From: Colwellia psychrerythraea
Lineage (GTDB): Bacteria; Pseudomonadota; Gammaproteobacteria; Enterobacterales; Alteromonadaceae
NCBI GenBank assembly: GCA_002163005.1
Contig: MAAF01000025.1
Location: 62,001-126,000 of the forward strand
DNA length: 64,000 bases
Reading direction: 5' to 3'
Every line of letters begins with the position of its first letter. Within the stretch, counting starts at the first letter, position 1. Of the stretch, positions 10,666 through 48,469 are shown one piece after another. A model generated the notes under the pieces. It did not search any database. It was not told where the DNA came from and worked only from the letters and a program-made list of their open reading frames with translations. The translations under genes and the position numbers were made by a program.

Positions 10666-10679
10666 CTTAACATGTTAAG
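10666..10679. promoter_or_regulatory. Predicted HpaR-type operator upstream of hpaE
   Basis: CTTAACATGTTAAG is a perfect 14-base palindrome 65 bases upstream of hpaE, in the hpaE/hpaG divergent region. Its core TTAACATGTTAA recurs at 33892, 46916 and 48458. Assignment to HpaR (MarR family, encoded at 11688) is inference from position and recurrence. Confidence 0.75.
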
Positions 10680-10773
10680 TATAAGGTGTGGTTGATGTCA
10701 AGTGATTACGCAATAAAACCCTAACTAATCACTTAAATGTTAATAAACCCTCCTATTTGTTGTACTTATTTAT

Positions 10774-10785
10774 TTAACACGTTAT
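10774..10785. promoter_or_regulatory. Predicted HpaR-type operator upstream of hpaG
   Basis: TTAACACGTTAT, one base from the full TTAAC-RY-GTTAA pattern, ends 39 bases before the hpaG start. With the site at 10666 it brackets the divergent promoters of hpaE and hpaG-hpaR, which would allow autoregulation of hpaR. Confidence 0.65.
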
Positions 10786-10824
10786 ATTGTTTGGCATTGG
10801 TAATTAAAATAGAGGATAAATAAT

Positions 10825-11685
10825 ATGCGATTTTTAACGTTTAATCATGCTGGTAAAGAATCTTGGGGTGTTATCACTGAGAAGGGAGTTATTGATTTAG
10901 GAAATTTAATTGGTGGTAGCTTATTACAAGTATTGCAAGACGATAAGCTAGATGCGATGAAAAAACTGGCAAGTGCCCTTGACGTTGATTATAGCGCAGA
11001 AGACATTGAGTTTTTACCACCGATAAGCAACCCCGGTAAAATTGCCTGTGTTGGTGTTAACTATGCTAACAGAAATGCTGAGTATAAAGATGGCTCTGAA
11101 GCCCCTAAATACCCGAGCTTATTTATTCGCACGCCGGATTCATTGACCGGTCATTCCAAACCATTAATTAGACCACCAGAGTCGCATAAATTGGATTACG
11201 AAGGTGAAATTGTCATAATTATAGGTAAAGAGGGGCGTCGTATTGCTGAAGAAGACGCTTACGAGCATATTGCCGGTCTAACCATCATGAACGAAGGTAC
11301 GTTACGTGATTGGGTGCGCCATGCTAAGTTTAATGTTACTCAAGGAAAAAACTTTATTCATTCCGGTTCAATTGGTCCTTGGATGGTAACAGCAGATGAA
11401 TTTACCTCAGAGCAATTTGAAAATATGCGGGTTACTACCAAAGTTAATGGTGAAATTAGACAAGATGATACTACTGCTAGTATGATGTTTCCTTTTAAAT
11501 ATATCATTAGCTACTTTTCAAAGTTTTTCCACTTAAAACCAGGTGATGTTATTGCAACAGGCACCCCAAATGGTGCTGGTGCTCGTTTTGAGCCGCCACG
11601 TTATTTAGCGCCTGGTGATGTTGTTGAGATAAATGTCGAAGGTGTGGGTACGTTAGTTAATGGTGTTAAGGACGAAGAAGTATAG
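10825..11685 (+). CDS. hpaG: 5-oxopent-3-ene-1,2,5-tricarboxylate decarboxylase / FAH-family isomerase
   Basis: 286 residues of the fumarylacetoacetate hydrolase fold. In this route HpaG decarboxylates 5-oxopent-3-ene-1,2,5-tricarboxylate and isomerises the product to 2-oxohept-3-enedioate. The core shows IACVGVNYANRN, PSLFIRTPDSLTGH, the metal-binding LDYEGEIVIIIG, a TLRDW element and KPGDVIATGTPNGAG. E. coli HpaG has two fused copies (about 430 residues); this protein is a single copy and no second one was seen in the window. It is divergent from hpaE and two bases before hpaR. Whether one copy does both reactions is open. Confidence 0.88.
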   Translation: MRFLTFNHAGKESWGVITEKGVIDLGNLIGGSLLQVLQDDKLDAMKKLASALDVDYSAEDIEFLPPISNPGKIACVGVNYANRNAEYKDGSEAPKYPSLFIRTPDSLTGHSKPLIRPPESHKLDYEGEIVIIIGKEGRRIAEEDAYEHIAGLTIMNEGTLRDWVRHAKFNVTQGKNFIHSGSIGPWMVTADEFTSEQFENMRVTTKVNGEIRQDDTTASMMFPFKYIISYFSKFFHLKPGDVIATGTPNGAGARFEPPRYLAPGDVVEINVEGVGTLVNGVKDEEV

Positions 11686-11687
11686 TT

Positions 11688-12134
11688 ATGACAAAAAGAC
11701 TCCGTAGTTTCGAACGATCTCTGCCTATGACCCTTTTACAAACAAGGGAAGCAGTGATGAAAAAATTTATTCCATCACTCAAAGAGCATGGTTTAACACC
11801 GCAGCAGTGGCGGGTCATTCGAGCTTTGGAGCATGAAAATGGTCTTGAAATAAGTACGCTAGCAAAACGTTGCCACTTACTTATGCCCAGCTTATCTCGA
11901 ATTATTAATCACCTAGATAAAGAAACGCTGATTCAACGTAAAACGGTTGATAGTGATCAACGACGTTCAAAAATATTCCTGACTGAACTTGGTCTGGAAC
12001 TATTTTCTAAAGTGGCGCCGAAATCTGTTGAAAGGTATGTTGAAATAGAAGAAAAATACGGTGTTAGAAAACTGGAATTACTCTATGAGCTTCTAGATGA
12101 TCTTATAAAAACACTCGAAGAGAATGATATATGA
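11688..12134 (+). CDS. hpaR: MarR-family repressor of the homoprotocatechuate operon
   Basis: 148 residues. The start RSFERSLPMTLLQTREAVM and the following LTPQQWRVIRALEH are typical of HpaR/HpcR. The winged helix-turn-helix spans about residues 45-100 (ISTLAKRCHLLMPSLSRIINHLDKE, then DQRRSKIFLTELG). HpaR proteins repress the meta-cleavage operon and are released by hydroxyphenylacetates. It lies two bases after hpaG. Its stop overlaps the ATG of the gabD remnant (ATGA), a sign that a third gene was once translationally coupled. A paralogue lies at 48530. Confidence 0.92.
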   Translation: MTKRLRSFERSLPMTLLQTREAVMKKFIPSLKEHGLTPQQWRVIRALEHENGLEISTLAKRCHLLMPSLSRIINHLDKETLIQRKTVDSDQRRSKIFLTELGLELFSKVAPKSVERYVEIEEKYGVRKLELLYELLDDLIKTLEENDI

Positions 12135-12479
12135 CTCAATTAATTGATTCTACTTTATTAAAATCAAGCAGCTAATGATGTTAATAACTTAGTTCAACAA
12201 GCAATTAATCAAGGTGCAGAGGTCAAAATTGGCGTAAAAATATCACTGCTAGCACCCTGCTATTTCGACCTCACAATTCTCACTAATCTTGACGTTAAGA
12301 TGGATATATTTAGTGAAGAGATTTTTGGTCCTGTTGCACCTATTTTTAAATTAAGTAATGAACAAGAAGCGACTGAAATGGCCAATGATACTGAATTTGG
12401 GTTAGCTTCATATGTCTTTACTAATAATATCAATGTAAAACACCTTAATTTTAAGTGTCTAGTGATATACTCTTCTTAA
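12131..12479 (+). pseudogene. gabD: Succinate-semialdehyde dehydrogenase remnant with large internal deletion
   Basis: An ATG overlapping the hpaR stop opens MTQLIDSTLLK, like the GabD N-terminus, but hits TAA after 14 codons. Overlapping this, in another frame from 12171, a stretch reads as GabD C-terminal sequence: FSEEIFGPVAPIFKL, then ATEMANDTEFGLASYVFT. It ends near 12435, and the last in-frame stop is at 12477-12479. The cofactor domain, catalytic Glu and Cys and the C-terminus are missing. An intact GabD would oxidise the succinate semialdehyde made by HpaI, so its place directly after hpaG-hpaR makes sense. It is now surely inactive, and another SSADH elsewhere is needed. Confidence 0.8.
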
Positions 12480-12482
12480 TTA

Positions 12483-12498
12483 TTCCAACACGTTGGAA
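12483..12498. promoter_or_regulatory. Palindrome TTCCAACACGTTGGAA
   Basis: A near-perfect 16-base inverted repeat just after the gabD remnant. Its AACACGTT centre equals that of the predicted operators at 10774 and 17233, but the arms are CC/GG instead of TT/AA. It lies about 195 bases before the YitT gene. A protein-binding site is possible but unproven. Confidence 0.35.
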
Positions 12499-12502
12499 AT
12501 GA

Positions 12503-12654: not shown

Positions 12655-12692
12655 AATTATGACAGTCGTCTTGTTCTTGAAGGTTTTTATAG

Positions 12693-15888: not shown

Positions 15889-16231
15889 TATTCATTACCT
15901 TCTTTATTATGATGTGTAACTTGTTAGCCAATCTTATATTAAAATATAAACGAAGCTGCCTGCAACACGAGATTTATTTAACGTGTTAACAGTATCATGG
16001 ATTGTATAGCAATAATAAATGGACCTTTCGCAGCCTTTATTGTACTTTACATAGGAAATGTATCAGTTGTATTTAAATAAAATAATAGATAAAACCTCTG
16101 TGATTTATTAGTAACTAATTGATTTTGAGTTGTATAATCATATAGCCTGTAGCTTTTTATAATTATTTGATAGCACAAAGTATAGAAAATTTAGTTTCAA
16201 CAAATAAATAACACACTTAGAGTGGGAATTA
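15889..16231. other. Divergent promoter region, oxygenase / AraC regulator
   Basis: About 340 AT-rich bases between two divergent genes. It contains the palindrome at 15978-15989 and no open frame worth calling. Promoters for both genes and the AraC-type binding sites are presumably here, but no AraC half-site repeat was identified with confidence. Confidence 0.55.
15978..15989. promoter_or_regulatory. Predicted HpaR-type operator upstream of the oxygenase gene
   Basis: TTAACGTGTTAA, a perfect match to TTAAC-RY-GTTAA, lies 90 bases upstream of the oxygenase start. It is followed by CAGTAT, which also flanks the palindrome at 33883-33912. Confidence 0.7.
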
Positions 16232-17146
16232 ATGAAAAATAAAATTCAACTGTCAAACGTGCATACTGATGACTATATTCCTAATATAGATTTAGGCCAA
16301 TCCTACGATCAACGTTATATTGATACTGATATTCATTACGAAAGCCTAGAGAAGTTAGCTAACTTTTTTGGGCGTAATATGCCAGTACATCATCATGATC
16401 GTTTTTATCAATTACACGTGATCCTGACAGGGACTATCCATGTTAATTTAGATGAAAAGAGTTATGTTGTACAAGCTCCAATGTTTTTTTTAACCCCGCC
16501 AACAGTGCCTCATGCCTTTATTACTGATAATAATGCAAAAGGGCATGTTATTACCGTAAGACAACAATTAGTGTGGCAATTAATGGAAAGCATGATGGCA
16601 ACAGGGTGGGATAAAAGCAATTTTATGACAAGCCCCTTGTGTGTTTCATTGGTACCGAAAAAAAATAAAAATGCTGTTCATTTACTTCAACTTCTCTCGT
16701 TAATCGCTGACGAAAACCAGCAGTCAGGGGTAGAGCAGGACATTGCTTTAAAGGCATTACTACAGTTGATATTGATAGATATTTTACGGCTTGCAGATCA
16801 AAGCCAGCCTCAACAAAAAATGCGTAAAGAGGATATCCGAATTTTTCACCTTTTTAATCAACTTATTGAAAGCCACTATAAAGAGCATTTAACCTTAAGT
16901 CAGTACTCAGCAAAAATAAGCATCACCGAGGCCCGCCTTAATGAAATTTGTCGCAGATTAGCAGGGCTACCATCAAAGCGTCTTATTATGGATAGGTTAA
17001 TTCAAGAAGCTCGAAGGTTATTATCCTTTTCATCAGTATCTATCACTGAAATAGGCTACGAACTCGGCTTTAAAGACCCTGCATATTTTGCACGATTCTT
17101 TCGCAAAAATGCTGGCGTTACGGCAAGTAAATACAGGAATAGATAA
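16232..17146 (+). CDS. hpaA: AraC-family activator, HpaA-like
   Basis: 304 residues. The N-terminal cupin (about 45-130) has a His-rich MPVHHHDRFYQLHVI strand and FLTPPTVPHAF, as in HpaA-type sensors. The C-terminal AraC helix-turn-helix pair (about 205-304) includes ITEARLNEICRRLAGLPSKRLI and ITEIGYELGFKDPAYFARFFRK. HpaA proteins activate the 4-hydroxyphenylacetate hydroxylase genes when bound to hydroxyphenylacetate. Here the gene is placed between the oxygenase (divergent) and the reductase (same strand, 156 bases downstream), which supports that role. The reductase has its own palindrome, so it may be transcribed separately. Confidence 0.85.
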   Translation: MKNKIQLSNVHTDDYIPNIDLGQSYDQRYIDTDIHYESLEKLANFFGRNMPVHHHDRFYQLHVILTGTIHVNLDEKSYVVQAPMFFLTPPTVPHAFITDNNAKGHVITVRQQLVWQLMESMMATGWDKSNFMTSPLCVSLVPKKNKNAVHLLQLLSLIADENQQSGVEQDIALKALLQLILIDILRLADQSQPQQKMRKEDIRIFHLFNQLIESHYKEHLTLSQYSAKISITEARLNEICRRLAGLPSKRLIMDRLIQEARRLLSFSSVSITEIGYELGFKDPAYFARFFRKNAGVTASKYRNR

Positions 17147-17232: not shown

Positions 17233-17244
17233 TTAACACGTTAA
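17233..17244. promoter_or_regulatory. Predicted HpaR-type operator upstream of the reductase gene
   Basis: TTAACACGTTAA lies 58 bases before the start of the flavin reductase gene. It is the same palindrome class as the other predicted operators. Confidence 0.7.
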
Positions 17245-25609: not shown

Positions 25610-25673
25610 TTAATATGTTAACTACTTTAATGATACGATTATTTTTAGTTATGTCAATACCGTGTATCACAAT
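25610..25673. promoter_or_regulatory. Candidate control region upstream of paaA (PaaX-like site and palindrome variant)
   Basis: On the minus strand ATTGTGATACACGGT (25659-25673) matches 12 of 15 positions of the published E. coli PaaX consensus WWTRTGATTCGYGWT. A second TGATAC is at 25631. Near the ribosome binding site, TTAATATGTTAA (25610-25621) is one base off the HpaR-type palindrome. Both assignments are inference. Confidence 0.45.
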
Positions 25674-25721: not shown

Positions 25722-26924
25722 TTAAACTCTTTCGATGATGATAGCAATGCCTTGTCCAACACCAATACACATGGTGCATAACGCATAACGACCTTGTGCG
25801 CGTTCAAGCTGGTACATGGCGGTAGTGACTAATCTAGCGCCACTAGCACCTAATGGATGCCCTAAAGCAATTGCGCCACCATTTGGATTTACATGCGCGG
25901 CATCGTCCGGTAAACCTAAGGCGCGTAATACTGCTAATCCTTGTGCGGCAAAGGCTTCGTTTAATTCTATTACATCCATTTGGTCAATGGTTAAGCCTGC
26001 TTTTTTCAGTACTTTATTAGTGGCCGAAACGGGCCCATAACCCATAATGCGCGGTGATAAACCTGCCGTTGCCATCGCTACTACGCGGGCTTTTGGAATT
26101 AAGTTATTCGCTTTAATTGCTTTTTCTGAAGCAAGTAATAAGGCACAAGCGCCGTCATTTACACCGGAAGCATTACCGGCGGTAACCGTGCCATTTTCTT
26201 TAAAAGGCGTGGCTAATTTGGCTAATGTTTCGATTGGGCTTAAACGCAAATGTTCGTCATCTGCAACGATGATATCGTCGCCTCTACGTTGTTTAATGTG
26301 GACGGGTACAATTTCATGGCTAAAAAGTCCAGCTTGTTGTGCCGCTAACGCTTTTGTTTGGCTATTAAAGGCAAAAGTATCTTGATCTACACGGCTTATA
26401 TTAAATTCTTCAGCAACATTTTCTGCCGTTTCGGGCATAGAATCTACGCCATATTCGTTCGCCATTAACTTGTTAACAAAGCGCCAGCCTATCGTAGTAT
26501 CAAAAATTTCTGCTTGACGGCTAAAAGCACTAGTCGCTTTAGGCATAACTAAAGGAGCTCTTGACATTGATTCAACACCACCAGCAATAATCAAATCGGT
26601 TTCACCACTAGCTATTGCACGCGCGCCACTGCCAATTGCATCAATACCTGAGCCACATAAACGGTTTAGGGTAACGCCTGGTACATCAATAGGAAGGCCT
26701 GCAAGTAAGCCACTCATGCGCGCAACATTACGATTATCTTCACCGGCTTGGTTGGCACAACCGTAGAAAACATCATCAACACTAGCCCAATCTACTTGAG
26801 GATTGCGTTTGATTAATTCTCTAATCGGAATAGCACCTAAATCATCCGCTCTTACGCTAGATAATGCACCACCATAGCGGCCAAATGGGGTTCTGATTGC
26901 GTCGCAAATGTATGTATTGTTCAT
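25722..26924 (-). CDS. paaJ: 3-oxoadipyl-CoA / 3-oxo-5,6-dehydrosuberyl-CoA thiolase
   Basis: 400 residues, one less than E. coli PaaJ. Thiolase marks: catalytic Cys in [60 protein letters not shown] and the second catalytic Cys in [13 protein letters not shown]. It splits the beta-keto intermediates of phenylacetate breakdown, releasing acetyl-CoA and leading to succinyl-CoA. It follows paaI at 14 bases and ends the paaG-I-J unit. PcaF-type thiolases are very similar; the cluster decides the name. Confidence 0.93.
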
Positions 26925-32796: not shown

Positions 32797-33732
32797 TTAT
32801 GCACCCCGTAGACGAATTTGTCTCGGAGTGTGTGAATATTGGGCTTTAAAGCAACGATTAAAATGCGATAAATCACCAAACCCCCACGCTAAAGCAACAT
32901 TACTGATAGAGATATTATTAAACTCTTTATTGGTTAAGTCTTTGTAACACCCTTCCAATCGTAATTGTTGAATATAACGAGAAACAGAAATATTTTGGCT
33001 TTTAAACAGCATATGTAAATAGCGTTTACTAATGTTTTCAGTTTGAGCGATAAAATCTACACCCAGTCTAAAGTCTTTGATATGCATATTGATCAGGCGT
33101 TTAATTCTTTGTAAATGTTGTTCAGGTGAGCTTTCTATAATTTTTGTATGACTGCTTTTTTGATTTTTAAGTGAGGTTATTAGTAAATCGAGCAGGTTAG
33201 CTTCCATACTTTGTAATGCTTCAGGATTGAGCTGACTCATACGTTGCGACAACGAATAAACAAATTGTGCCAGCATGCCGTTGGTTGGCTCTTCGTTACC
33301 CATTCTCAAACCTAAATAGTCATCAGGTGTTTGAAACATTTCTTGTAAAGCCAGTTGTGGCATTGCGAATACCGCTTGTTGATAACTTTCTTGAAATTCT
33401 AGTTGATAGGGTTCACTTGAACTGCAAATGATAAAGTCGCCTGGGGCTAATCTTGCTTCTCTGCCATAGTGTTTGGTACTGCAGTTACCTGTCAGTTGAA
33501 ACTTTATCAAGTAATAAGCATCAGTAACGCGAGCAATATCAACTTTTGATCTTTGAGCAACAATAGGGCTACTTGATACTTGAGCAAGGCTAAAACGATT
33601 CAATCTTTTACTGCTTATAGAGGCGTTAAATTCATTATTTTTAAGTGAAGATAATGCACTGCAACTCATGGGACAAAAACTATTTGATACTTCATGATTG
33701 AATGAATCCAAACTAGTGATCAATGTTGTCAT
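32797..33732 (-). CDS. AraC-family regulator, FeaR-like
   Basis: 311 residues. Residues 20-185 form an AraC-binding-like domain (RVTDAYYLIKFQLTGNCSTKHYGRE, APGDFIICSSSEPYQLEF). The C-terminal 100 residues hold the two helix-turn-helices (ISKRYLHMLFKSQNISVSRYIQQLRLEGC and ISNVALAWGFGDLSHFNRCFKAQYSHTPRQIR). The domain order resembles FeaR, the E. coli activator of tyramine/phenylethylamine oxidation genes. It is divergent from the TonB receptor-aldehyde dehydrogenase-aau operon, which makes it the likely activator of that operon. The inducer is not evident from sequence. Confidence 0.82.
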   Translation of the reverse strand: MTTLITSLDSFNHEVSNSFCPMSCSALSSLKNNEFNASISSKRLNRFSLAQVSSSPIVAQRSKVDIARVTDAYYLIKFQLTGNCSTKHYGREARLAPGDFIICSSSEPYQLEFQESYQQAVFAMPQLALQEMFQTPDDYLGLRMGNEEPTNGMLAQFVYSLSQRMSQLNPEALQSMEANLLDLLITSLKNQKSSHTKIIESSPEQHLQRIKRLINMHIKDFRLGVDFIAQTENISKRYLHMLFKSQNISVSRYIQQLRLEGCYKDLTNKEFNNISISNVALAWGFGDLSHFNRCFKAQYSHTPRQIRLRGA

Positions 33733-34044
33733 ATACTAACTCCTAAAAGATTATGCTTATAAAACAATTATTTATGATTTTCTAAAACAAGTCTCAATTG
33801 TGTTTTTACTTTTATTCGTTGCACTTTCAGTCAATTTTATTGTTCTCTCTAGACCAAGATATTAAGTTTTAAGCTTGCTTTAATAATACTGTTAACATGT
33901 TAACAGTATTATATCTAAATGATAATTCAAAGATGTTTTTTATCATGTGGAGTACAGATGTTGTTAATTTGTTAGTAAATAATTAGATATAAAAATAAAA
34001 AATAATTTACAGCTAATTTATCAAAATTATCTATGGGGAAAGAA
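33733..34044. other. Divergent promoter region of the amine-oxidation operon
   Basis: About 310 AT-rich bases between the FeaR-like gene and the TonB receptor gene. Its main feature is the 30-base palindrome at 33883-33912. No open frame of note. GGGGAAAG just before 34045 is the receptor's ribosome binding site. Confidence 0.65.
33883..33912. promoter_or_regulatory. 30-base perfect palindrome upstream of the TonB/aau operon
   Basis: Each 15-base arm is exact: the left one is ATAATACTGTTAACA and the right one its complement. The centre is TTAACATGTTAA, the same core found upstream of hpa genes, the porin and the mini-HpaD operon. It lies 132 bases before the receptor start and 150 bases before the divergent regulator, fitting an operator that controls both. 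Confidence 0.75.
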
Positions 34045-36339
34045 ATGAAAATAAATAAAGCTAAAGTAGCTATAGCCATCAGTGCAGCGTTTACATTTTG
34101 TAGTTCTGCTGTTGTACAAGCAGAAAATGTTATCGAAAAAATAATGATTACAGCTTCAAAAAAGCAAGAGTCTATTCAAGCCAGTAACGTTGCGGTAACA
34201 GCATTTTCTGGTGACGCTTTACGCGAGCTAAATTTGACCGATAGTACAGATATTGCCAGTCAAACACCTGGCTTGAACATAGGTACGCCTGTTGGGGAAG
34301 GGAATAACCCTTCCATTAGTTTACGTGGTGTTGGTCTCAATGATTTCAATGATAATAATGAAGGCCCTATTGCTGTTTATCGTGATGAAATTTACCAATC
34401 GGCGATGCCGGGATTAACTTTTCAGTTATTTGATTTAGAGCGCGTTGAAGTACTTAGAGGGCCACAAGGTACACTTTATGGCCGAAATGCTACGGGTGGA
34501 TTAGTCCATTTTATTTCTAAAAAACCAACTGACGAACTTGAAGGTTTTGCTAGTGTCACTTTTGCACAATATAACCAAATCAAAACAGAAGCGGCGATAT
34601 CAGGTGGTTTAACAGACGCTATACAAGCTCGTTTATCGCTAGCGACAAATAATCACGATGGTTATGTAACTAACCGGATAGGAAAAGATGCTAATGAGGC
34701 TGATAATTTAGCCTATCGTTTGCAAGTAAATTTTGATTTGTCCGATAACTTCCAAGCGTTGGTAAATGTTCATGGTGCTAAATCCGATACAATTGCACCG
34801 CAGTATCAACATCAAGCGACCGACGATGGCTCTGGCACGGCAGGCATTAGTGATTATTATGGTTATAAAGACACAGACGGCGATGTATGGGCAGGTGAAT
34901 ATGATCGTGAAGGATTATTAAAAATTGATTCAAAAGGTGCATCAATTCACCTTGATTATGATGGTGGTGATTACACGTTAACGTCAATAACCGCAGTTGA
35001 AGATGTTGAAAAAATTCACCAAGAAGATACTGACGTAGGGCCTTTTGATGGTATTACGCCACAGTTTATTTCAGAAAATCAACAGTTCAGCCAAGAGTTC
35101 AGGGTTGCCTTCTCAACAGGTTCAATGGACTGGATGTTTGGTGCATATTATTTTGAAAATGAAGTGACAGGCGCATTAGATTTAGCACTTAACTTTCCAG
35201 GGCCTTTAGTTGATGTTATTACAGGTGCTCCAGAGGGATCTTTTGGATCAGACATGGTGAACTTTGTTGATTATGATGTTGACTATGTTCAAGAAACAGA
35301 GTCATCTGCTATTTTTGGTCAAGTTGAAATTCCATTAAATGAACAATTAAATTTAACCGTTGGTCTTCGATATACCACTGAAGAACGTACCATGACTTAT
35401 CAAAATAAAGCGACGGGTAATCCAGATGCTGTTGTTAATTCTTGCATAATTCCCGCTGGAGATGTTTGTGACTTCGGTTTTGGATCAGATTTTCCGGGCA
35501 CAGACCATTACCTAAATTTTTCTAGCAGTAATGCTGACTTTGGCAGTTTAGGAAAAATTGATGATGACAATATTTCTGGTCGAATTAGTTTAGATTATAC
35601 GCCTACACAAGATTTATTAGTGTTCTTTAATGTGGCAACAGGTTTTAAAAGTGGTGGCTTTAATGGCGGATTTTTAGATTTTACTGACGGTGTTACCATC
35701 GAAGATGTACCATTTGAATCTGAAGAACTGCTTAGTTATGAACTTGGTTTTAAATCAACCCTCGCAGATGGCGATATTCGCTTTAATGCGACCGCTTTTT
35801 ATTACGATTATGAAAACTACCAAGCGCTAACATTTGCGGGTTTAAGCCAATTTATTGATAATTCTGACGCGACAATTAATGGTGCTGATTTAGAGCTAAT
35901 TTGGTTACCGGGAGAAAACTGGGACATCAGTTTAGGCGCAAGTTTTATCAATTCGGAAGTAGATGAAATTTCAATACGTGGTGCAGAAACTTTTCAAGAT
36001 ACTGAAATGGTGTTAGCACCAAGCTATAGCTTAAATGGTTTAGTGCGTTATCAAGCAACAGAAAAACTATCAGTACAAGTTGATTTTAATCACCAAGATG
36101 AACAGTTCTTTGACATTACCAACAGCGAAGTATCTCACGAAAGTGCTTATACCGTTTTTAATGCCAGAATTGGGTTTGATATTAGTGAGAACTTTGCTAT
36201 TTCAGCATTTGTTAAAAACCTAACAGATGAAGAATACCGTGTATACAGTTTTGATTTTACCGGTGCTGCTGGTTACAACCAAAACTTTTATGCCGCACCT
36301 CGTTGGGTAGGCGTTACCTTGAATTATACCTTTGAATAG
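34045..36339 (+). CDS. TonB-dependent outer membrane receptor
   Basis: 764 residues from ATG 34045, preferred over 34033 because GGGGAAAG lies just before it and a clean signal peptide (to VVQA|EN) results. The TonB-box-like IEKIMITASKK is followed by a plug domain (LRELNLTDSTDIASQTPGLNI, SISLRGVGLNDF, ERVEVLRGPQGTLYGRNATGGLVHFISKKP) and a 22-strand barrel ending in Phe-Glu (LNYTFE). It opens a probable operon with the aldehyde dehydrogenase and aau genes, so its ligand may relate to aromatic amine use. Iron, copper or a cofactor are alternatives. No siderophore genes are near. Confidence 0.9.
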   Translation: MKINKAKVAIAISAAFTFCSSAVVQAENVIEKIMITASKKQESIQASNVAVTAFSGDALRELNLTDSTDIASQTPGLNIGTPVGEGNNPSISLRGVGLNDFNDNNEGPIAVYRDEIYQSAMPGLTFQLFDLERVEVLRGPQGTLYGRNATGGLVHFISKKPTDELEGFASVTFAQYNQIKTEAAISGGLTDAIQARLSLATNNHDGYVTNRIGKDANEADNLAYRLQVNFDLSDNFQALVNVHGAKSDTIAPQYQHQATDDGSGTAGISDYYGYKDTDGDVWAGEYDREGLLKIDSKGASIHLDYDGGDYTLTSITAVEDVEKIHQEDTDVGPFDGITPQFISENQQFSQEFRVAFSTGSMDWMFGAYYFENEVTGALDLALNFPGPLVDVITGAPEGSFGSDMVNFVDYDVDYVQETESSAIFGQVEIPLNEQLNLTVGLRYTTEERTMTYQNKATGNPDAVVNSCIIPAGDVCDFGFGSDFPGTDHYLNFSSSNADFGSLGKIDDDNISGRISLDYTPTQDLLVFFNVATGFKSGGFNGGFLDFTDGVTIEDVPFESEELLSYELGFKSTLADGDIRFNATAFYYDYENYQALTFAGLSQFIDNSDATINGADLELIWLPGENWDISLGASFINSEVDEISIRGAETFQDTEMVLAPSYSLNGLVRYQATEKLSVQVDFNHQDEQFFDITNSEVSHESAYTVFNARIGFDISENFAISAFVKNLTDEEYRVYSFDFTGAAGYNQNFYAAPRWVGVTLNYTFE

Positions 36340-37867: not shown

Positions 37868-39088
37868 ATGAAAGTAGATACACACTTTAAGAAAATTTTT
37901 TTAGTGTGTTGCCTCTTTTTTTCTATGAGCGTTTTTATGACTGCACAGGCAAGTCAAAAAGCGGCTGATGATGTGGCACCAAGGACGGATTTGCCCCCAT
38001 TGCCAGTAGAAAAAACAGGTAACGTAGAAGTCTTGCCGAGTCAATTTCCAGAAACGTGGATGTATGTTGATGAATCAAGCTTTATGAGTATGTTTGGCGG
38101 CAAAATGATTTTACTTGATGTTGCAGAAAGTAAACATGCTGACCGTATCAAAGGCACTGCAGATAAAAACTTGCTCGGTAATTTTATTCAGGCGAAGAAA
38201 CGGCCTGAATTTTATATTATGGAGTCATTCCATACTCGTGGCGCAAGAGGGCCGAAAACAGATGTGCTAACTATCTATAACAAAACGACTATGGCCACGT
38301 CTAAAGAAATTATTTGGCCAGACACTCGTTTACAGTCTTTACCTAGGCGTCATGCAATGGCATTGACGCCTGATGAAAAGTTTTTATTTGTTGCTAACTT
38401 TAGCCCAGCGGCATCTATTACTGTGGTTGATTTAGACACAAAAGAAATTACCGCAACTATAGGTACTCCAGGTTGTGTTTTAACCTTTGCTACCGGTAGT
38501 CGAAGTGTTTCTTCATTGTGTAGTAATGGTGGCATGTTAACTACCGTGCTAAATGATGCAGGAAGGCTTAAATCACAACATAGGATCAAAGCCTTTTTTG
38601 ATACCGATAAAACGCCTATCTTTGAAAGACCTGTAATTATTAATGATATCGCTTATTTTCCGAGCTTTACTGGGGAAGTTCACGTGTTTGATTTTTCAGG
38701 TGAGGTGGCTAAATATCTAGAGCATTGGAGCTTAGTTACTGAGGATGAAAAGAAGAAAAACTGGCGACCGGGTGGCTTAGCGTTAAATGATGTTGATGAA
38801 CAAGGGATCATGTATCAAATTATGCATGCCGATGGCTATGACGGTTCACAAACCCATGGCGGTAGTCAGGTTTGGCTTTTTGATATGAAAACTAAGCAAC
38901 GTCTGAAAGTGATTGATATACCTAGTTGGGCGGTTTCTGTCGCGGTAACTAGAGGTAAGGAGCCCCTAATGGTTATTACTAACGGTGAATTACAGCTTGA
39001 TATCTTTAACCCAAGAACAGGAAAGTTGATACAAACCATCAGCGATTTTGGTAACTCAACACCACTACTTGTACATAAGGCGTATTAA
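37868..39088 (+). CDS. aauB: Aromatic amine dehydrogenase, large (alpha) subunit
   Basis: 406 residues. A Sec signal peptide (to QASQ) leads into a seven-bladed beta-propeller of the amine dehydrogenase heavy-chain family: PRTDLPPLPVEKTGNVEVLP, ILDV-type strands, ESFHTRGARGPKTDVLTIYN, PRRHAMALTPDEKFLFVANF and YDGSQTHGGSQVWLFD. The protein forms the alpha2 part of the periplasmic alpha2beta2 enzyme that deaminates primary amines. Aromatic amine (AauB) rather than methylamine specificity (MauB) is inferred from the B-E-D-A order without mauF/G and from the paa/hpa surroundings. Two bases separate it from aauE. Confidence 0.88.
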   Translation: MKVDTHFKKIFLVCCLFFSMSVFMTAQASQKAADDVAPRTDLPPLPVEKTGNVEVLPSQFPETWMYVDESSFMSMFGGKMILLDVAESKHADRIKGTADKNLLGNFIQAKKRPEFYIMESFHTRGARGPKTDVLTIYNKTTMATSKEIIWPDTRLQSLPRRHAMALTPDEKFLFVANFSPAASITVVDLDTKEITATIGTPGCVLTFATGSRSVSSLCSNGGMLTTVLNDAGRLKSQHRIKAFFDTDKTPIFERPVIINDIAYFPSFTGEVHVFDFSGEVAKYLEHWSLVTEDEKKKNWRPGGLALNDVDEQGIMYQIMHADGYDGSQTHGGSQVWLFDMKTKQRLKVIDIPSWAVSVAVTRGKEPLMVITNGELQLDIFNPRTGKLIQTISDFGNSTPLLVHKAY

Positions 39089-39090
39089 TC

Positions 39091-39648
39091 ATGAGTTATG
39101 TGTTTTCTGATGCGAGTGCTTTGTTTTTAATGTGGGTTTTTGCGCAAGCAGGTTTGCACAAAGTGCAGTCTGTTAATGGTCTTTATTATGCAAACTTGAT
39201 CGCACAATATTTAAATTTACAGGCTTACATAGATCATAATATTCAAGCAAAGTCACAGCTTAAATTACTCGCTAAAGCTATTGGCTTAATAGAAGTAACC
39301 TTGGCTTTAGTACTTGTTATACCAAGTACTAGAGCGATTGCCGCCATGTTAGCAATCGTTATATTAATGTCTTATTTGTTACTGATGGCTTATCAAATAG
39401 TGCAAGGTAAGAAAAATTTAGATTGTGGTTGTATGGGCCCAGCAGGGCAGATAAATATAAGTGGCAGTTTATTACTGCGTAATGGTATTTTTTCTGTTTT
39501 AGCTTTGTTGTGTTTAGCACCCGGAAACAACTTTTTTACCAGCGCAATGGTAATGACGATAATTATCTCTTTGGTGATGATTTTATTAAATTTAACGTTT
39601 GAGCAGCTTATTGTTAATGCTCAACGACTAAAAGTGCTTAGTCACTAA
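39091..39648 (+). CDS. aauE: MauE/AauE membrane protein for amine dehydrogenase maturation
   Basis: 185 residues with about five hydrophobic segments, matching MauE/DoxX-like membrane proteins. The family's conserved short motif is present as DCGCMGP at residues 111-117. MauE works with MauD to form the many disulfides and stabilise the small subunit in the periplasm. It lies between aauB (2 bases) and aauD (17 bases). The CxC pair probably exchanges disulfides with AauD. Confidence 0.88.
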   Translation: MSYVFSDASALFLMWVFAQAGLHKVQSVNGLYYANLIAQYLNLQAYIDHNIQAKSQLKLLAKAIGLIEVTLALVLVIPSTRAIAAMLAIVILMSYLLLMAYQIVQGKKNLDCGCMGPAGQINISGSLLLRNGIFSVLALLCLAPGNNFFTSAMVMTIIISLVMILLNLTFEQLIVNAQRLKVLSH

Positions 39649-39665
39649 AAATTGAGGATGTAAAT

Positions 39666-40271
39666 ATGGATTTACTCGTTATATCAAATATAGTTCTTTG
39701 GATCATAGTAGTTGTTTTTGCTGTGGTTATTTATGCTCTTACTCGCCAAATAGGCGTACTTTATGAGCGTGTTGCGCCTGCTGGCGCGCTGGCTATTAAT
39801 CAAAAGCTTGAAACTGGCCAAGTAGCACCTGAGCTAACGTTACAAACAATGGCCTCAACGTTAGTTAATGTTGGCGGTTCGCGTGACAATGGCCACTCAC
39901 AACTGTTGTTTTTTATTTCGCCAACTTGTCCTGTGTGTAAAACATTATTACCGGCAATTAAATCAGCGGCTAAAGCTGAAGCTGATTGGGTTGATGTCGT
40001 GTTTGCTAGTGATGGCAAAAATGACGACCATCAAGGCTTAATTGATCAACAAGGTTTAGCAAATTTTCCTTATATTGTTTCAGAAGTATTGGGTAAAAGT
40101 TTTGGGATTGCCAAATTGCCGTATGCAGTATTGATTGATCAACAAGGTGTTATTGCATCGATGGGCATTATTAACTCTAGAGAGCATATTGATAGTTTGT
40201 TTGAAGCAAAAGAACATCAAGTCGCTTCTATTCAAGAGTTTATGTCTAAACAAGCCTACCCAGCTAAATAA
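39666..40271 (+). CDS. aauD: Thioredoxin-like protein for small-subunit disulfide formation
   Basis: 201 residues: one N-terminal membrane anchor (about 4-25), then a periplasmic thioredoxin fold with the active-site pair C88-P-V-C91 in FFISPTCPVCKTLLPA and a cis-Pro-type loop KLPYAVLID. MauD proteins are required for making a stable small subunit; in Alcaligenes faecalis, mutation of this gene abolished growth on aromatic amines. It lies 12 bases before aauA, whose product has 14 cysteines in 174 residues. Confidence 0.9.
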   Translation: MDLLVISNIVLWIIVVVFAVVIYALTRQIGVLYERVAPAGALAINQKLETGQVAPELTLQTMASTLVNVGGSRDNGHSQLLFFISPTCPVCKTLLPAIKSAAKAEADWVDVVFASDGKNDDHQGLIDQQGLANFPYIVSEVLGKSFGIAKLPYAVLIDQQGVIASMGIINSREHIDSLFEAKEHQVASIQEFMSKQAYPAK

Positions 40272-40283
40272 TGGAAATGACAC

Positions 40284-40808
40284 ATGAATTTTATTGATAA
40301 ATTTTTTGAAAAAAGAGCGCGTAATGTTGCGCAATTGAGTAATCGTCGAGGTTTTATTAAAGGGGTAGCTGCCACACTAGTTGGTGCATCTTCCATTCCT
40401 TTATTACCGGTGGCTAGAGCCAGTGATACTCCGGTATTACCGCAAGAAGCTGGCGATCCATCAAGCTGTGATTATTGGCGTTATTGCGCCATTGACGGTT
40501 TTTTATGTGACTGTTGTGGAGGCAGTTACAATACTTGTCCACCAGGAACAGAAATGTCACCTATCACGTGGATTGGCACCTGTCGGAACCCTATCGACGG
40601 TCGTAATTATGTTATTTCATACAATGATTGTTGTGGTAAAACCCAATGTGGCACTTGTTTATGTCAACGCGATGAAGGTGACAGACCTTTATACCGCTCT
40701 GATAAATCAAACGATGTGAATTGGTGTTTAGGGGCAACTAGCTCTGTTTATCATTGTTCTACCGCGATTGTTGTTGGTATTGCCTTTGATGAAGGTAGTA
40801 GCAAGTGA
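40284..40808 (+). CDS. aauA: Aromatic amine dehydrogenase, small (beta) subunit with TTQ cofactor
   Basis: 174 residues. Residues 18-46 are a twin-arginine signal (SNRRGFIKG, then a hydrophobic stretch to ARA). The tryptophan tryptophylquinone pair is W96 (SPITWIGTC) and W147 (VNWCLGA), 51 apart as in known enzymes (57/108 in methylamine, 109/160 in aromatic amine dehydrogenase). The catalytic Asp, 19 after the first Trp, is D115. Fourteen cysteines would form disulfides. The enzyme converts R-CH2-NH2 to aldehyde and ammonia. The start of the cytochrome gene overlaps the stop codon. Confidence 0.92.
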   Translation: MNFIDKFFEKRARNVAQLSNRRGFIKGVAATLVGASSIPLLPVARASDTPVLPQEAGDPSSCDYWRYCAIDGFLCDCCGGSYNTCPPGTEMSPITWIGTCRNPIDGRNYVISYNDCCGKTQCGTCLCQRDEGDRPLYRSDKSNDVNWCLGATSSVYHCSTAIVVGIAFDEGSSK

Positions 40809-41251
40809 GTGCGTTAAGTTTATGCGTAAAACGCGTTGTTTGGGGCCTATGTATTTTTTGTAGTGTCCAAACTAATGCTGCAGATAACCTTTTAGAGATG
40901 AATACCGACAGAGCTAAATTCAATTATCAAATGTTCTGTCAAGGTTGTCATACGCCTGATGGTACTGGTGGGAAATCAGTGCCTAAAATTAAAAACTATA
41001 TTGGTTACTTTCTACAGAATCAAATTGCTCGCGAGTATTTAGTCAGAGTTCCTGGTTCTGCTAATTCGTCGCTAAATGATGAACAGTTGGCGGAAGTCCT
41101 CAACTGGATGATTATTGAACTTGGTGGTGAGAGTGTGCCAAAAAACATGCAATATTATACAGCTAATGAGGTTGCTAAATTACGACAGCACCCCTTATTT
41201 GAAGTTGTAGAGTATAGAGAAATGTTAGTAAAAAAATTATCAGTTAAATAG
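40805..41251 (+). CDS. Monohaem cytochrome c of the amine dehydrogenase operon
   Basis: 148 residues starting with GTG that overlaps the aauA stop (GTGA), so the two are coupled. A signal peptide to NAA|D is followed by one haem site C45-Q-G-C48-H49 and a later Met-containing region near WMIIELGG and the MQYYTANEV segment. Alcaligenes faecalis aau also has a small monohaem cytochrome gene directly after aauA. It probably takes electrons from reduced TTQ. No azurin or amicyanin gene is present in the window. Confidence 0.85.
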   Translation: MSALSLCVKRVVWGLCIFCSVQTNAADNLLEMNTDRAKFNYQMFCQGCHTPDGTGGKSVPKIKNYIGYFLQNQIAREYLVRVPGSANSSLNDEQLAEVLNWMIIELGGESVPKNMQYYTANEVAKLRQHPLFEVVEYREMLVKKLSVK

Positions 41252-41290
41252 CTTTTAGTTTACTTTACATTAATAAATTTAGGACAACCG

Positions 41291-41884
41291 ATGAAAACAG
41301 TTACCAACAATAAATTTAATAAAATATCACCGATTGCTTTTTTAACTTGTTTTGTCATGAATCAACCTGTCATTGCTAATGAGCAAAGTAATATTGATGA
41401 TTTAGCCAAGGCTTGTATTACATGTCATGGTCAAAAGGGTATTTCTACTGACACAACTTTTCCGAATTTAGCGGGACAAAAACAGGGGTATCTTAATCAA
41501 GAAATTAAAGCGTTTCGTGATGGTAAACGAGATAATCCGCAAATGTTACCTTTTGTCAATTCGCTCAGTGATGATGATATTACGCAGTTAGCGCATTACT
41601 TCTCACAGCAAAAAAATGATGCAAAAGCGAGTGAAACGTATAATAAAAAAGGAGAAAATGTTCGAGCTCGCTGCATTTCTTGTCATGGCATGAAGGGGAT
41701 TACTGTGACAGAATTATGGCCAAATTTAGCGGGGCAGCAAGCAAAGTATCTACAAAAACAATTGCATGCATTTAAAAGTGGTAAACGGCAGTCACCTATA
41801 ATGCAGGTAATAGCACAAGAGTTAACAGATGAGCAGATAGAAGCCGTTGCAGAATATTATAGTCAGCAAGCAGCTAGTCAGTAA
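41291..41884 (+). CDS. Dihaem cytochrome c4-like protein
   Basis: 197 residues with a Sec signal and two tandem cytochrome c domains. The haem sites are C42-I-T-C45-H46 and C128-I-S-C131-H132, each followed by G-x-K-G-I and later by FPNLAGQ or WPNLAGQ and an axial Met (NPQMLPF, SPIMQVI). This is the c4 pattern. It is the last gene of the aau operon, 39 bases after the monohaem cytochrome. It probably carries electrons on to a terminal oxidase. Confidence 0.9.
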   Translation: MKTVTNNKFNKISPIAFLTCFVMNQPVIANEQSNIDDLAKACITCHGQKGISTDTTFPNLAGQKQGYLNQEIKAFRDGKRDNPQMLPFVNSLSDDDITQLAHYFSQQKNDAKASETYNKKGENVRARCISCHGMKGITVTELWPNLAGQQAKYLQKQLHAFKSGKRQSPIMQVIAQELTDEQIEAVAEYYSQQAASQ

Positions 41885-44509: not shown

Positions 44510-44520
44510 AGAACAACTCC

Positions 44521-45757: not shown

Positions 45758-45804
45758 AAAAGCGTAACAACAAAATGGGCACTGTTACGCAATCAAGGTT
45801 TTTA

Positions 45805-46851
45805 CTAAAGTACGTAACGCATTGTTAGTTGACCGTAGTTAGAGTCAACATCTTGGTCATCTCTTGAGTAGTTACCTATTTCAAAACCTACAGCTAACTG
45901 CTTAGTTAAGTTCTTGAATAAGTTAACGCTCCACTGAGTACTTTCCATACCCGAAATATCAGCTTCAGCATTAGCGTAAGCTACTGTACTTCTTAAATCC
46001 TCGGTCCAGAAGTGACGATATGAGGCAATATATGATACGGTGTCTTCAGCTTCTTCTCCAACGACATCAGTTGCTGAAACAACACCTACGTAGCGACCAA
46101 CATTACCACCGTGTACTTGGAAACGAATATCATCCTTACCAAAAGTCTTAATGCGACCTGCCACAGAGTAACCAATACCTGTTTCGCTATTACCTAACGC
46201 GGTATGTAATTTACGGCCAAGACCGGCAACAGAAATATTACCCCAATCGCCTTTGAAGCTATATTTAGCAACAACATCTGGCACATTATCCATGGTGTCG
46301 TCGCCGCCAAAGGTGTGTGGGTTTTCAAGTGATACTTGGAAATCACCCATGGTATAACGTACTTGACCTTGACGTATAAACGCTAAACCCATTGCAGGAC
46401 CGGCAAAATCCGCTGTTTCAGGAATAGCACTGGTATTCATGAAGGTGGTCCAAGTTTGTCCAGCCAAAACACTTTTGTATTTGATAAAGGCATGGCGAAT
46501 ACGTGGATTAGCAGAATTAGAAATAATTTCATTACCTCCACCCCCCCAAAAATCCATTTCAATAAAGCCCATTACTTCACCGTGGGTATATTTCATATTG
46601 AAACGAGTTTCATTAGCAAATAAGTTAAATTGTGATTTGCTTTCAGATAACGCAACGGCTGTGCCAGCACCTAACCAAAATGGACGGTAAGCTACATCAC
46701 CATCAACATAGCGAGCATCTACTTTAATGTAGCCACCAAAAGAAATTTTATCTTCTTCAGATAACTTGATTTCGTAGCCTGCATTGGCAGCGCCTGCTGC
46801 AACAAGTAAGCTCGAAGCGAGTAATAATTTTTTAGACTTATTATTAAACAT
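45805..46851 (-). CDS. DcaP-like outer membrane porin
   Basis: 348 residues. Signal peptide to ANA|G, then a barrel with ISFGGYIKVDARYVDGD, FNLFANETRFNMKY, GFIEMDFWGGGGNEI, RIRHAFIKYKSVLAGQTWTTFMN and a final LTMRYVL strand, matching DcaP-type trimeric porins. In Acinetobacter DcaP takes up negatively charged small molecules such as dicarboxylates. An operator palindrome lies 65 bases upstream, placing it with the hpa/aau regulon. Uptake of hydroxyphenylacetate or similar acids across the outer membrane is inferred. Confidence 0.85.
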   Translation of the reverse strand: MFNNKSKKLLLASSLLVAAGAANAGYEIKLSEEDKISFGGYIKVDARYVDGDVAYRPFWLGAGTAVALSESKSQFNLFANETRFNMKYTHGEVMGFIEMDFWGGGGNEIISNSANPRIRHAFIKYKSVLAGQTWTTFMNTSAIPETADFAGPAMGLAFIRQGQVRYTMGDFQVSLENPHTFGGDDTMDNVPDVVAKYSFKGDWGNISVAGLGRKLHTALGNSETGIGYSVAGRIKTFGKDDIRFQVHGGNVGRYVGVVSATDVVGEEAEDTVSYIASYRHFWTEDLRSTVAYANAEADISGMESTQWSVNLFKNLTKQLAVGFEIGNYSRDDQDVDSNYGQLTMRYVL

Positions 46852-46915
46852 TACTGTTTCCCCTATTAGATATGTTATTTTTTTTGTTTTTTTGTATGCT
46901 TAAGCAGCTCATTGC

Positions 46916-46927
46916 TTAACATGTTAA
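46916..46927. promoter_or_regulatory. Predicted HpaR-type operator upstream of the porin
   Basis: TTAACATGTTAA with flanking GC on the left (ATTGC), the same left flank as at 10661. It lies 64 bases before the porin start and is identical in the core to the sites at 10667, 33892 and 48458. Confidence 0.72.
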
Positions 46928-46971
46928 ATAGTATTGACTGTAGCCTTACCTGTTGTCAACTAATTAATATA

Positions 46972-48180
46972 TTAATTAGTTTTGTTTTGATCATTACTTT
47001 TGAAGTTAATAGTCAAGTGATGACTTAATAAAGCAAGAATAGGGGAAGTAAAAATAAAAAAAGCTAGCGTAAACAAACCATAGGACATGAAGTAGGGGGC
47101 CAGTTGGGCAACAAGTGCACCAATAATTAATTGGATAAATCCTAGCAGCCCAGAAGCTGTTCCAGCGGTAGATAGTGAGCAAGCTATAGCACCTGACTGT
47201 GCACTTGGTTGGCTTAACCCTCTTCCAAAGGTAAGTAATGCCATGGGGGCAAAAAGGGAAATGTAGTCAAGTAAATTAAAATAAACGAACAACAATAAGA
47301 CACTTGCAGCTAATAAAGATATTCCGTGCCCTAAAGTGATCATGGCATCAATTGGAATGCGTTTAGCTAAATTTCCAGAGCAAAAGCTACCGAACATAAA
47401 TGCAAGTGCAACCAATAAAAACCAATTACCGAAATCAGCAGAATTACCACCTAACTTATTGATAACTATATAAGGTGCGCTACCAATAAAAATATAAAAA
47501 CCACAGGCAATAAATGTACTAGATAATGCGTAACCAAGATACTCCTTAGATTTTATTATTTCTTTATATTGCTGCAATACTTTTTTTAACTTCAAGCTAG
47601 ATGTTTTTCTTGGACATGTTTCAGTTAACTTTTTTACGGCAATCAAACAAACACAAAAGGCAATCGTTGCAGAAATAATGAAGATGGTTTGCCAGTGATA
47701 ATATAAATTAATATATCCACCTAACGTTGGAGCGATCGTTTGAGAAAGCGCTATTGCCATCACCAGATAACTCATTTTACTTGCGGATTTTTCTCGGCCA
47801 TATATGTCTAACGTCATCGTGCGAGCCATAGACATGCAAGCACTACCGCCTAATGCTTGAAGTACTCTTGCAGCGATAAGCAAATTTATATCCGTCGATA
47901 ATGCTGCAAAAATACAGCCAAAGAAATGAATAAGTAAACCAGAAATTAATACCGGATACCGGCCAAAATAATCGGCTAAAGAGCCTGATATTAATTGCCC
48001 AAATGCTAGTGTTAATAAATAACAACTATAGGTTAATTGCATTGTAGCTATATCAGTATGTAAAACGTTAACTACCGTAGGCATTGCTGGAATAAATAAG
48101 TTCAATGCTAATGGGCTGGTCATTGCTATAACAATAAGCAGCATTAATGAGGGCTGCTTATTGGTGTTATATTTATTCAT
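46972..48180 (-). CDS. MFS transporter, Bcr/CflA type
   Basis: 402 residues with twelve hydrophobic helices. The first block SPLALNLFIPAMPTVVNVLHTD, then QLTYSCYLLTLAFGQLISGSLADYFGRYPVLISGL and RVLQALGGSACMSMARTMTLD, is that of the drug-exporter subfamily Bcr/CflA (TIGR00710). It lies 16 bases after the mini-HpaD gene and shares its operator. Export or import of aromatic compounds is possible; export of toxic phenolics would suit the family. Confidence 0.87.
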   Translation of the reverse strand: MNKYNTNKQPSLMLLIVIAMTSPLALNLFIPAMPTVVNVLHTDIATMQLTYSCYLLTLAFGQLISGSLADYFGRYPVLISGLLIHFFGCIFAALSTDINLLIAARVLQALGGSACMSMARTMTLDIYGREKSASKMSYLVMAIALSQTIAPTLGGYINLYYHWQTIFIISATIAFCVCLIAVKKLTETCPRKTSSLKLKKVLQQYKEIIKSKEYLGYALSSTFIACGFYIFIGSAPYIVINKLGGNSADFGNWFLLVALAFMFGSFCSGNLAKRIPIDAMITLGHGISLLAASVLLLFVYFNLLDYISLFAPMALLTFGRGLSQPSAQSGAIACSLSTAGTASGLLGFIQLIIGALVAQLAPYFMSYGLFTLAFFIFTSPILALLSHHLTINFKSNDQNKTN

Positions 48181-48196
48181 ATTGTGGAGTTAACTA

Positions 48197-48406
48197 TTAA
48201 TCGATAGGAAAAATAATATTGATTAGTGCAGTACCTGCGTTTGGAAAGTATTCGCCAATAATTTTGCTTATTCTGGGGGGGGTATCGCAACTGAGTATGC
48301 CGTAAAGCAAATTACCTTGTGTCTTCAATCCTACATTCTCAAGACTGTTATAAGATAGCATAGTGGGCACATAAGCGGTTTTAGCTGCATAATTGACTTC
48401 ATCCAT
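48197..48406 (-). CDS. Mini-HpaD: 69-residue internally deleted dioxygenase-like protein
   Basis: The first 16 residues (MDEVNYAAKTAYVPTM) and the last 38 (from NLLYGIL to INIIFPID) align without gaps to the ends of HpaD at 8197, with 7/16 and 13/38 identical. The roughly 215 residues between, including the catalytic core, are missing. The N-terminal metal ligand His12 of HpaD is Tyr here. It still has an AGGA ribosome binding site, an open frame, an upstream operator and a coupled MFS gene. It cannot be an extradiol dioxygenase. It may be decaying, or a small protein kept for another role. Confidence 0.7.
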   Translation of the reverse strand: MDEVNYAAKTAYVPTMLSYNSLENVGLKTQGNLLYGILSCDTPPRISKIIGEYFPNAGTALINIIFPID

Positions 48407-48457
48407 GAGATATTCCTCGTTAATTGGAGAAAATAATTTAGTTATGTAGCAATCTAA

Positions 48458-48469
48458 TTAACATGTTAA
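48458..48469. promoter_or_regulatory. Predicted HpaR-type operator upstream of mini-HpaD/MFS
   Basis: TTAACATGTTAA, extended to an 18-base perfect palindrome (48455-48472, TAA and TTA arms). It lies 52 bases before the mini-HpaD start and just after the stop of the MarR gene at 48530. Confidence 0.75.

Follow-up and report, generated by a model that had tools for sequence, protein, structure and literature searches.

A palindrome in front of seven transcription units points to a probable, broad HpaR regulon in Colwellia psychrerythraea

A 64,000-nucleotide stretch of the Colwellia psychrerythraea genome (assembly GCA_002163005.1, contig MAAF01000025.1, positions 62,001 to 126,000; hereafter the window) carries repeated copies of a 12-bp palindrome, TTAACRYGTTAA, upstream of genes for the breakdown of aromatic compounds. 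We conclude with considerable confidence that this palindrome is the operator of HpaR, a MarR-family regulator, and that one or both of the two HpaR proteins predicted in the window (HpaR1 and HpaR2) repress the units behind it until released by a ligand. The sites very probably mark a real, conserved, HpaR-controlled regulon, and the comparative evidence thereby supports the proposal of a preliminary description of this DNA that a regulon covers uptake, amine oxidation and ring cleavage. The operator is ordinary; the breadth of the gene set and the presence of two repressors are unusual. Because the sites are not confined to hpa genes and stand also before a TonB-receptor/aau operon, a DcaP-like porin gene, an MFS gene and a distant monooxygenase gene, the regulon appears wider than the textbook hpa case, taking in the aromatic-amine-dehydrogenase/TonB-receptor operon, the porin, the MFS gene, a second hydroxylase and perhaps paaA. 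That the regulator is HpaR is indicated by three comparative observations: both MarR proteins exceed the TIGR02337 cut-off, the same palindrome stands at the HpaR loci of other genera, and Escherichia coli has a one-base variant of it.

Exact copies lie at 10667, 15978, 17233, 33892, 46916 and 48458 and nowhere else in the 64,000-nt scan, and TTAACACGTTAT at 10774 differs from TTAACRYGTTAA by a single mismatch. The preliminary description had named these seven positions and placed them 40–135 bases upstream of start codons; its set stands, with all seven sites intergenic and 39–129 bp from the nearest start codon, and we add a candidate eighth site at paaA and one likely member outside the window. 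Between the divergent hpaE and hpaG, TTAACATGTTAA (10667..10678, 65 bp from hpaE) overlaps the predicted −10 of the hpaE promoter and TTAACACGTTAT (10774..10785, 39 bp from hpaG) overlaps the predicted −10, TATATT, of hpaG-hpaR1, so that the meta-operon operators read TTAA-N4-TTAA and TTAA-N4-TTAT; predicted promoters are here consensus matches only. TTAACGTGTTAA (15978..15989) lies between hpaA and the C2-AEC unit, C2 being the oxygenase component of hydroxyphenylacetate hydroxylase (HPAH), at 89 bp from C2, and TTAACACGTTAA (17233..17244) lies 58 bp from the gene for the reductase component (C1), directly downstream of its predicted −10. TTAACATGTTAA recurs at 33892..33903, over a −35-like box 129 bp from the TonB-receptor gene and within a longer dyad (aatactg...cagtatt) between a FeaR-like gene and the TonB-receptor/aau operon; at 46916..46927, just past the −10 predicted for the DcaP-like porin gene (64 bp from its start; TRAP genes follow); and at 48458..48469, in the 17-bp spacer of TTGACA-N17-TAGATT ahead of the mini-HpaD/MFS unit (51 bp from mini-HpaD and 277 bp from the MFS gene).

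A chance origin of these sites is rejected by shuffled sequence and by the site density of HpaR-less relatives. One hundred dinucleotide shuffles of the window give a mean of 0.05 exact TTAACRYGTTAA, in agreement with an earlier rough estimate of well under one, and none of the 100 attained six; the density in HpaR-less Colwellia (0.80 per Mb) predicts 0.051 sites per 64 kb, with P(≥6) of ~2.5e-11. Allowing up to two mismatches brings little excess (88 window matches against 71.8 expected, with 4/100 shuffles attaining 88), and the signal is therefore the strict palindrome. One more TTAACNNGTTAA in the window, at 26465, has a non-RY centre and lies within the paaJ ORF (open reading frame). Weaker sites were scored with a weight matrix built from 43 hpa-linked sites of other genomes, relatives included, and scores in those relatives are thus not independent. 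The degenerate sites at 6076, 26465 and 28321 were not counted, because scores of 11.3–11.5 arise 0.55 times per random window and 26465 is coding. At 25610..25621, TTAATATGTTAA scores 16.0, a best score attained in 1 of 20 Markov windows; it lies 14 bp before the likely paaA ATG (25595), after a −35/−10-like pair recognized by eye, and we treat it only as a candidate eighth site and a weaker operator. Its letters are identical to those of the E. coli hpaG site, and it may link HpaR with the phenylacetate pathway.

The whole genome (4.61 Mb, 121 contigs) holds 11 exact TTAACRYGTTAA, six of them in the window, and 10 matches to the reversed control pattern; the unusual feature is thus a local cluster and not a genome-wide surplus. 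The preliminary description had proposed such a scan, with few extra hits near aromatic genes as its expected support, and the regulon reading withstands it. Only five further copies occur, four of them within unrelated ORFs (cusB-like, napC/torC-like, sensor-like and pyrC-like, named by eye), although the copy in the pyrC-like ORF falls within the first 50 bases, where a true start further in would leave it intergenic. The fifth, the sole clearly intergenic one, precedes an aromatic-hydroxylase-type monooxygenase gene on contig C18 by 77 bp.

HpaR proteins above the TIGR02337 cut-off are present, in two copies each, in 6 of the 147 genomes searched: the window genome (G000) and five Colwellia relatives (G017, G018, G019, G027 and G028), whose loci we fetched and mapped. 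These carriers hold 11, 12, 7, 10, 5 and 7 exact sites (52 in 23.8 Mb), and the 33 Colwellia without an over-cut-off HpaR show background counts (120 in 149.2 Mb; 0–7 each, mean 3.6). Among 21 background sites hand-picked from those 120 (20 stretches, 10 HpaR-less Colwellia), 12 lie within an ORF and none has a neighbouring gene that matches a window protein, the monooxygenase, gloB or mltD (E 1e-8). In the five relatives many of the units seen in the window have a site too, even where genes have been relocated. The hpaE/hpaG gap has TTAACATGTTAA in all six, likewise with a second site bearing the odd final T (6/6), and in a five-genome alignment that leaves out the rearranged G017 both sites and a −35-like block are conspicuous among drifting flanks; at 10667 all 12 positions are invariant in the five aligned genomes, and the site is present in G017 too. 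The mismatch at 10774, described earlier simply as one base off, is part of the predicted hpaG −10 box, which would explain why it is retained in 6/6 carriers.

The TonB-receptor/aau operon also has a site in every carrier: exact at the receptor in G000, G018 and G019, one-off in G017 and G028, and exact 66 bp before aauB in G027, which has no such TonB receptor at E≤1e-150. At that threshold the receptor is found in 5/6 carriers and 0/33 non-carriers. Three same-family genomes that have the nearest aauB outside the carriers (65–68% identical), and which may or may not encode HpaR, show no site scoring at least 6.5 in the ~4.1 kb fetched, a stretch that may miss the operon start. Exact sites further stand upstream of C2 or AEC in G000, G017, G019 and G027, upstream of C1 in G000 and G017, and on the DcaP/TRAP side past the MFS gene in G000, G019 and G028 (in G028 the downstream gene is off the contig), and G017 has one exact site between HpaR2 and TRAP-P. 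The HpaR2–MFS gap has an exact site in G000, a one-off site in G028 and a weak one in G018. Before paaA we find TTAATATGTTAA in G000 and G028 and TTAATATATTAA in G018, following a TTGACA-N17-TATCAT-like pair identified by eye in the alignment.

The placement of the operators on promoter boxes fits repression by occlusion. Dimers of HpaR1 and/or HpaR2 would occupy the promoters, at the −10, within the −35/−10 spacer or at the start point, and would there block hpaEDFHI, hpaG-hpaR1, the genes for both HPAH components, the TonB-receptor/aau operon, the DcaP-like porin gene and the MFS unit. 4-Hydroxyphenylacetate (4-HPA) or its 3,4-dihydroxy product, an inducer taken from the literature, would release HpaR, and HpaA and the FeaR-like protein may add activation. 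One could instead suppose that HpaR activates at some sites, as at a type VI secretion system (T6SS) promoter of Yersinia pseudotuberculosis (PMC7180172, available text), with AraC-type regulators governing the rest, and the C2 site, which lies beside its predicted promoter and not over it, would suit this. The operator overlaps or separates the promoter boxes at hpaE, hpaG and the MFS gene, however, and stands 2–3 bases past the −10 at C1 and the DcaP-like gene, while conserved −10 letters account for the odd base of 10774; we consider activation improbable.

Beyond Colwellia, a single scan of named genomes returned 304 HpaR loci, of which the best 80 were taken (1.44 Mb; five are Colwellia loci). 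These 80 contain 39 TTAACNNGTTAA and no reversed-control match, with six of the 39 in the five Colwellia loci and 33 in the other 75. After sites within unassigned ORFs were dropped, 23 of the 75 had an exact site, 27 a one-off site only (a class that has no chance control) and 25 neither; TTAACATGTTAA accounts for 31 of the 32 exact non-Colwellia sites so counted. Marine gammaproteobacteria with a single HpaR have TTAACATGTTAA at hpa genes. In E. coli BL21, TTAATATGTTAA, a one-base variant of the palindrome, lies 31 bp before hpaG and has the top score in the 14-kb hpa stretch (12.1; next 2.1). The available text of PMC7180172 gives TTAA-N4-TTAA as the footprint of Y. pseudotuberculosis HpaR, with one site over a −10, and repression of hpaG1. 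HpaR is also described as bound upstream of hpaA and the meta operon and released with 4-HPA (PMC12718150, available text), and 4-HPA and 3,4-dihydroxyphenylacetate have been suggested as its ligands, although calorimetry saw no binding to HpaR (PMC10364317, available text).

The palindrome might belong to some other regulator (MarR/SlyA-type, HpaA or FeaR-like), with its linkage to HpaR incidental. Further MarR proteins are present in these genomes, and palindromes of such length are typical of the superfamily. Within the genus, however, site density tracks the presence of HpaR, the same 12 letters accompany HpaR across genera, and AraC-type proteins mostly bind asymmetric sites, all of which makes this explanation very unlikely.

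Several observations nonetheless weigh against an HpaR regulon of the kind proposed. The genome-wide site count of C. psychrerythraea is not above that of the reversed control; the six carriers are related, so that their counts are not independent; and the HpaR-less G005 has seven sites, equal to two of the carriers. At C2 the operator lies next to a weak predicted promoter, the HpaR2–MFS gap of G019 and G027 has no site, and a site at gloB/mltD in four relatives fits no aromatic role. With 25 of the 75 non-Colwellia loci siteless (19 of them betaproteobacterial), the operator is not universal in the HpaR family; the 27 one-off-only loci lack a chance control; and a 45-kb stretch of E. coli DNA from elsewhere includes one site that scores as high (12.4) as that of hpaG.

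The two HpaR-like MarR proteins noted in the preliminary description both score above the TIGR02337 cut-off (121.2): HpaR1 (11688..12134, + strand, in the hpaG-hpaR1 unit) scores 146.5 bits and HpaR2 (48530..48952, − strand) 169.9. HpaR1 is linked to the homoprotocatechuate meta-cleavage genes, following hpaG with hpaEDFHI divergent, and HpaR2 adjoins a probable hpaD relic and the MFS gene. They are 39% identical to each other, and both types coexist in 6/6 carriers. In a 92-row tree, where long branches make deeper joins unsure, the R1 proteins cluster (99/90) together with those of G335, G389 and G484, which belong to other families of the class, and the R2 proteins cluster (100/99) among the HpaRs of Oceanospirillaceae/Marinobacteraceae. 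HpaR number was checked in 12 named genomes picked for having a site at their locus; every one of them has a single HpaR, of R2 type, and in 11 the site adjoins HpaR or an hpa-like gene. Genomes G389 and G484 have an R1-type protein and a second relative below the cut-off.

It is conceivable, if rather unlikely, that HpaR2 alone reads the palindrome and that HpaR1 has moved to other targets or roles. In the recognition-helix region HpaR2 has PSLTGI, as does E. coli HpaR, and HpaR1 has PSLSRI; HpaR1 also has the lower family score and the lower identity to E. coli HpaR (37% against 46%). On the other side, R1-type proteins occur in palindrome-flanked hpaG-hpaR1 units in three genomes outside Colwellia, and the sole HpaR of G335 (a 93% complete assembly) is R1-type, though both of its sites, between hpaE and hpaG-hpaR1, are one-off. 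Both types are thus found with the palindrome where they occur singly (for R1, in this one genome with one-off sites), from which we infer that both HpaR1 and HpaR2 can read it; the two sister repressors may share the gene set.

Outside the window, the MobA/phenol-2-monooxygenase-like gene on contig C18 (L190:2757-4697) is a likely regulon member. Its product scores 851.9 bits with NF006144 (phenol 2-monooxygenase; cut-off 560), and the best match of known structure is 3-hydroxybenzoate hydroxylase (2dkh, 687 bits). The gene is present in 6/6 HpaR carriers and 0/33 other Colwellia (E≤1e-150), with an exact operator before it in G000, G017, G019 (two copies) and G027 and a one-off site in G018; the C18-type gene of G028, which has one internal stop and lies beside the hpa cluster, has no preceding site scoring at least 6.5. 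Save for small fragments in G017, the two-component oxygenase C2 was not found in the five relatives (E 1e-20, a search with no positive control), nor was a protocatechuate 3,4-dioxygenase beta subunit found in the six carriers. We infer that the C18 enzyme may be a hydroxyphenylacetate hydroxylase. As a side observation, the HPAH oxygenase gene of G017 is in small pieces and its reductase gene is split in two (L057:14329-14618 and 16020-16829), with the operators intact.

The unit behind the site at 48458 had been described as a mini-HpaD/MFS unit. The site does lie ahead of it, but mini-HpaD (48197..48406, − strand), an ORF of 69 aa that combines stretches from the N and C termini of an HpaD-type dioxygenase, is probably what is left of a decayed second hpaD, and the MFS gene would now use its promoter and operator. 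The C-terminal end of the ORF matches HpaD at E 3.9e-6 and the N-terminal end weakly (E 0.011); what looks like a decayed remnant lies in the same gap of G028, and perhaps another in that of G018. In Marinobacterium (L107, L115, L116 and L117) the order is HpaR, operator, hpaD-like, distantly HpaE-like, MFS and second hpaD-like gene, with identities to the window proteins of 53–54%, 27–29%, 54–57% and 75–77%, respectively.

As a tentative picture, which we hold to be possible but short of probable, two anciently diverged HpaRs of different origin, HpaR1 in the hpaG operon and the Oceanospirillaceae-related HpaR2 at what is left of a second, shrunken hpa cluster, would share one operator and gate a route that leads from the outer membrane into central metabolism. 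This route would comprise the TonB receptor, the porin, the amine dehydrogenase, the hydroxylases and ring cleavage, joined in three relatives by succinate-semialdehyde dehydrogenase. The C18 MobA-like FAD monooxygenase, with the same operator, would be an alternative hydroxyphenylacetate hydroxylase that replaces the two-component enzyme in the relatives.

The remaining genes of the window were identified as follows. For the ORFs of the hpaE-D-F-H-I unit of the meta-cleavage pathway (6121..10601, − strand), the gene names follow general knowledge of these families, together with a visual comparison against the hpa genes annotated in E. coli BL21. The hpaG-like FAH-family gene (10825..11685, +) scores 174.5 bits with TIGR02303, below the 276.4 cut-off. 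Against Acinetobacter-type C1/C2 4-HPA hydroxylase profiles, C2 (14713..15888, −) is above its cut-off (NF045920, 719.9 against 650 bits) and C1 (17303..18241, +) below (NF045919, 257 against 340); the reductase has 312 aa, and its C-terminal half seems to resemble the MarR-like domain of C1 from A. baumannii. HpaA, an AraC-family regulator (16232..17146, +), exceeds the TIGR02297 cut-off (407.2 against 274.65 bits), and the FeaR-like AraC regulator (32797..33732, −) falls below that of NF007243 (161.3 against 199). The TonB-dependent receptor (34033..36339, +; TIGR01783, 158.1 bits, below the 223.5 cut-off) is the first gene of a presumed amine-oxidation operon that continues with aau-type aromatic amine dehydrogenase and cytochrome-like genes (37868..41884, +; heavy chain at 37868, light chain at 40284; PF06433 and PF02975), the names of the genes other than those two being provisional. 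The DcaP-like porin (45805..46851, −) scores 48.1 bits with PF19577 (cut-off 27), and the Bcr/CflA-family MFS transporter (46972..48180, −) 222.5 bits with TIGR00710 (cut-off 200.9).

The relatives show further sites of interest. In G017 (L057:13234) and G028 (L076:929) an operator at the hpa locus separates the gene of an AEC transporter from one for succinate-semialdehyde dehydrogenase, and in G018 a gene of the latter kind directly follows hpaG-hpaR1 (L061:6214-7671); the dehydrogenase gene of the relatives is above the TIGR01780 cut-off. An exact site in G017 (L058:773) stands 126 bp ahead of a gene for a sulfatase, with a FeaB-like aldehyde dehydrogenase gene next in line, perhaps for the use of sulfated aromatics. 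At gloB/mltD (L060:2467, L064:1498, L071:1532 and L082:1591; 4/5 relatives), TTAACACGTTAA overlies the gloB stop codon, 66–133 bp before an mltD-like gene, and is absent from the window genome's exact sites; sites at an aldehyde dehydrogenase/HGLS pair (G018 and G028) likewise overlap stop codons.

Among solved structures, 7el2 and 7el3, which we take to be HpaR of Acinetobacter baumannii, are the best relative of HpaR1 and the second-best of HpaR2; 5aip and 5aiq, entered only as MarR family, are presumably NadR. For A. baumannii HpaR, the available text of PMC12718150 names no amine-oxidation or receptor operon as a target, whereas the window palindrome precedes such an operon. NadR of Neisseria meningitidis, also a repressor of the MarR family, binds DNA less well in the presence of 4-HPA (PMC4841544, available text), but it controls the adhesin NadA through 22-bp operators, not catabolism. 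The Colwellia system resembles that of E. coli W and Y. pseudotuberculosis in its MarR-family HpaR, its TTAA-N4-TTAA operator and a site over the meta-operon −10 (PMC7180172, available text; E. coli BL21 sequence). The targets named there are the hpa-meta operon and the Yersinia T6SS; here, in contrast, the palindrome also precedes an amine dehydrogenase/TonB receptor, a porin, an MFS gene and a second hydroxylase, and HpaR comes in two types. Among the literature matches listed, which leave most subscription papers outside their coverage, including two primary HpaR papers, no title or opening of an abstract reports HpaR sites at amine-dehydrogenase or receptor operons.

The palindrome thus defines a testable regulon for the marine breakdown of hydroxyphenylacetates and, as far as substrates can be judged from the genes, tyramine- or dopamine-like amines. 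How the expression of GabD and Sad is kept in step with the 4-HPA operon had stayed ambiguous (PMC12718150, available text), and a succinate-semialdehyde dehydrogenase gene that has the operator, or follows hpaG-hpaR1, bears on that question. The shared operator suggests roles for the receptor, the porin and the distant monooxygenase, and HpaR1 and HpaR2 provide a natural example of paralogous repressors that have diverged and may read a single site.

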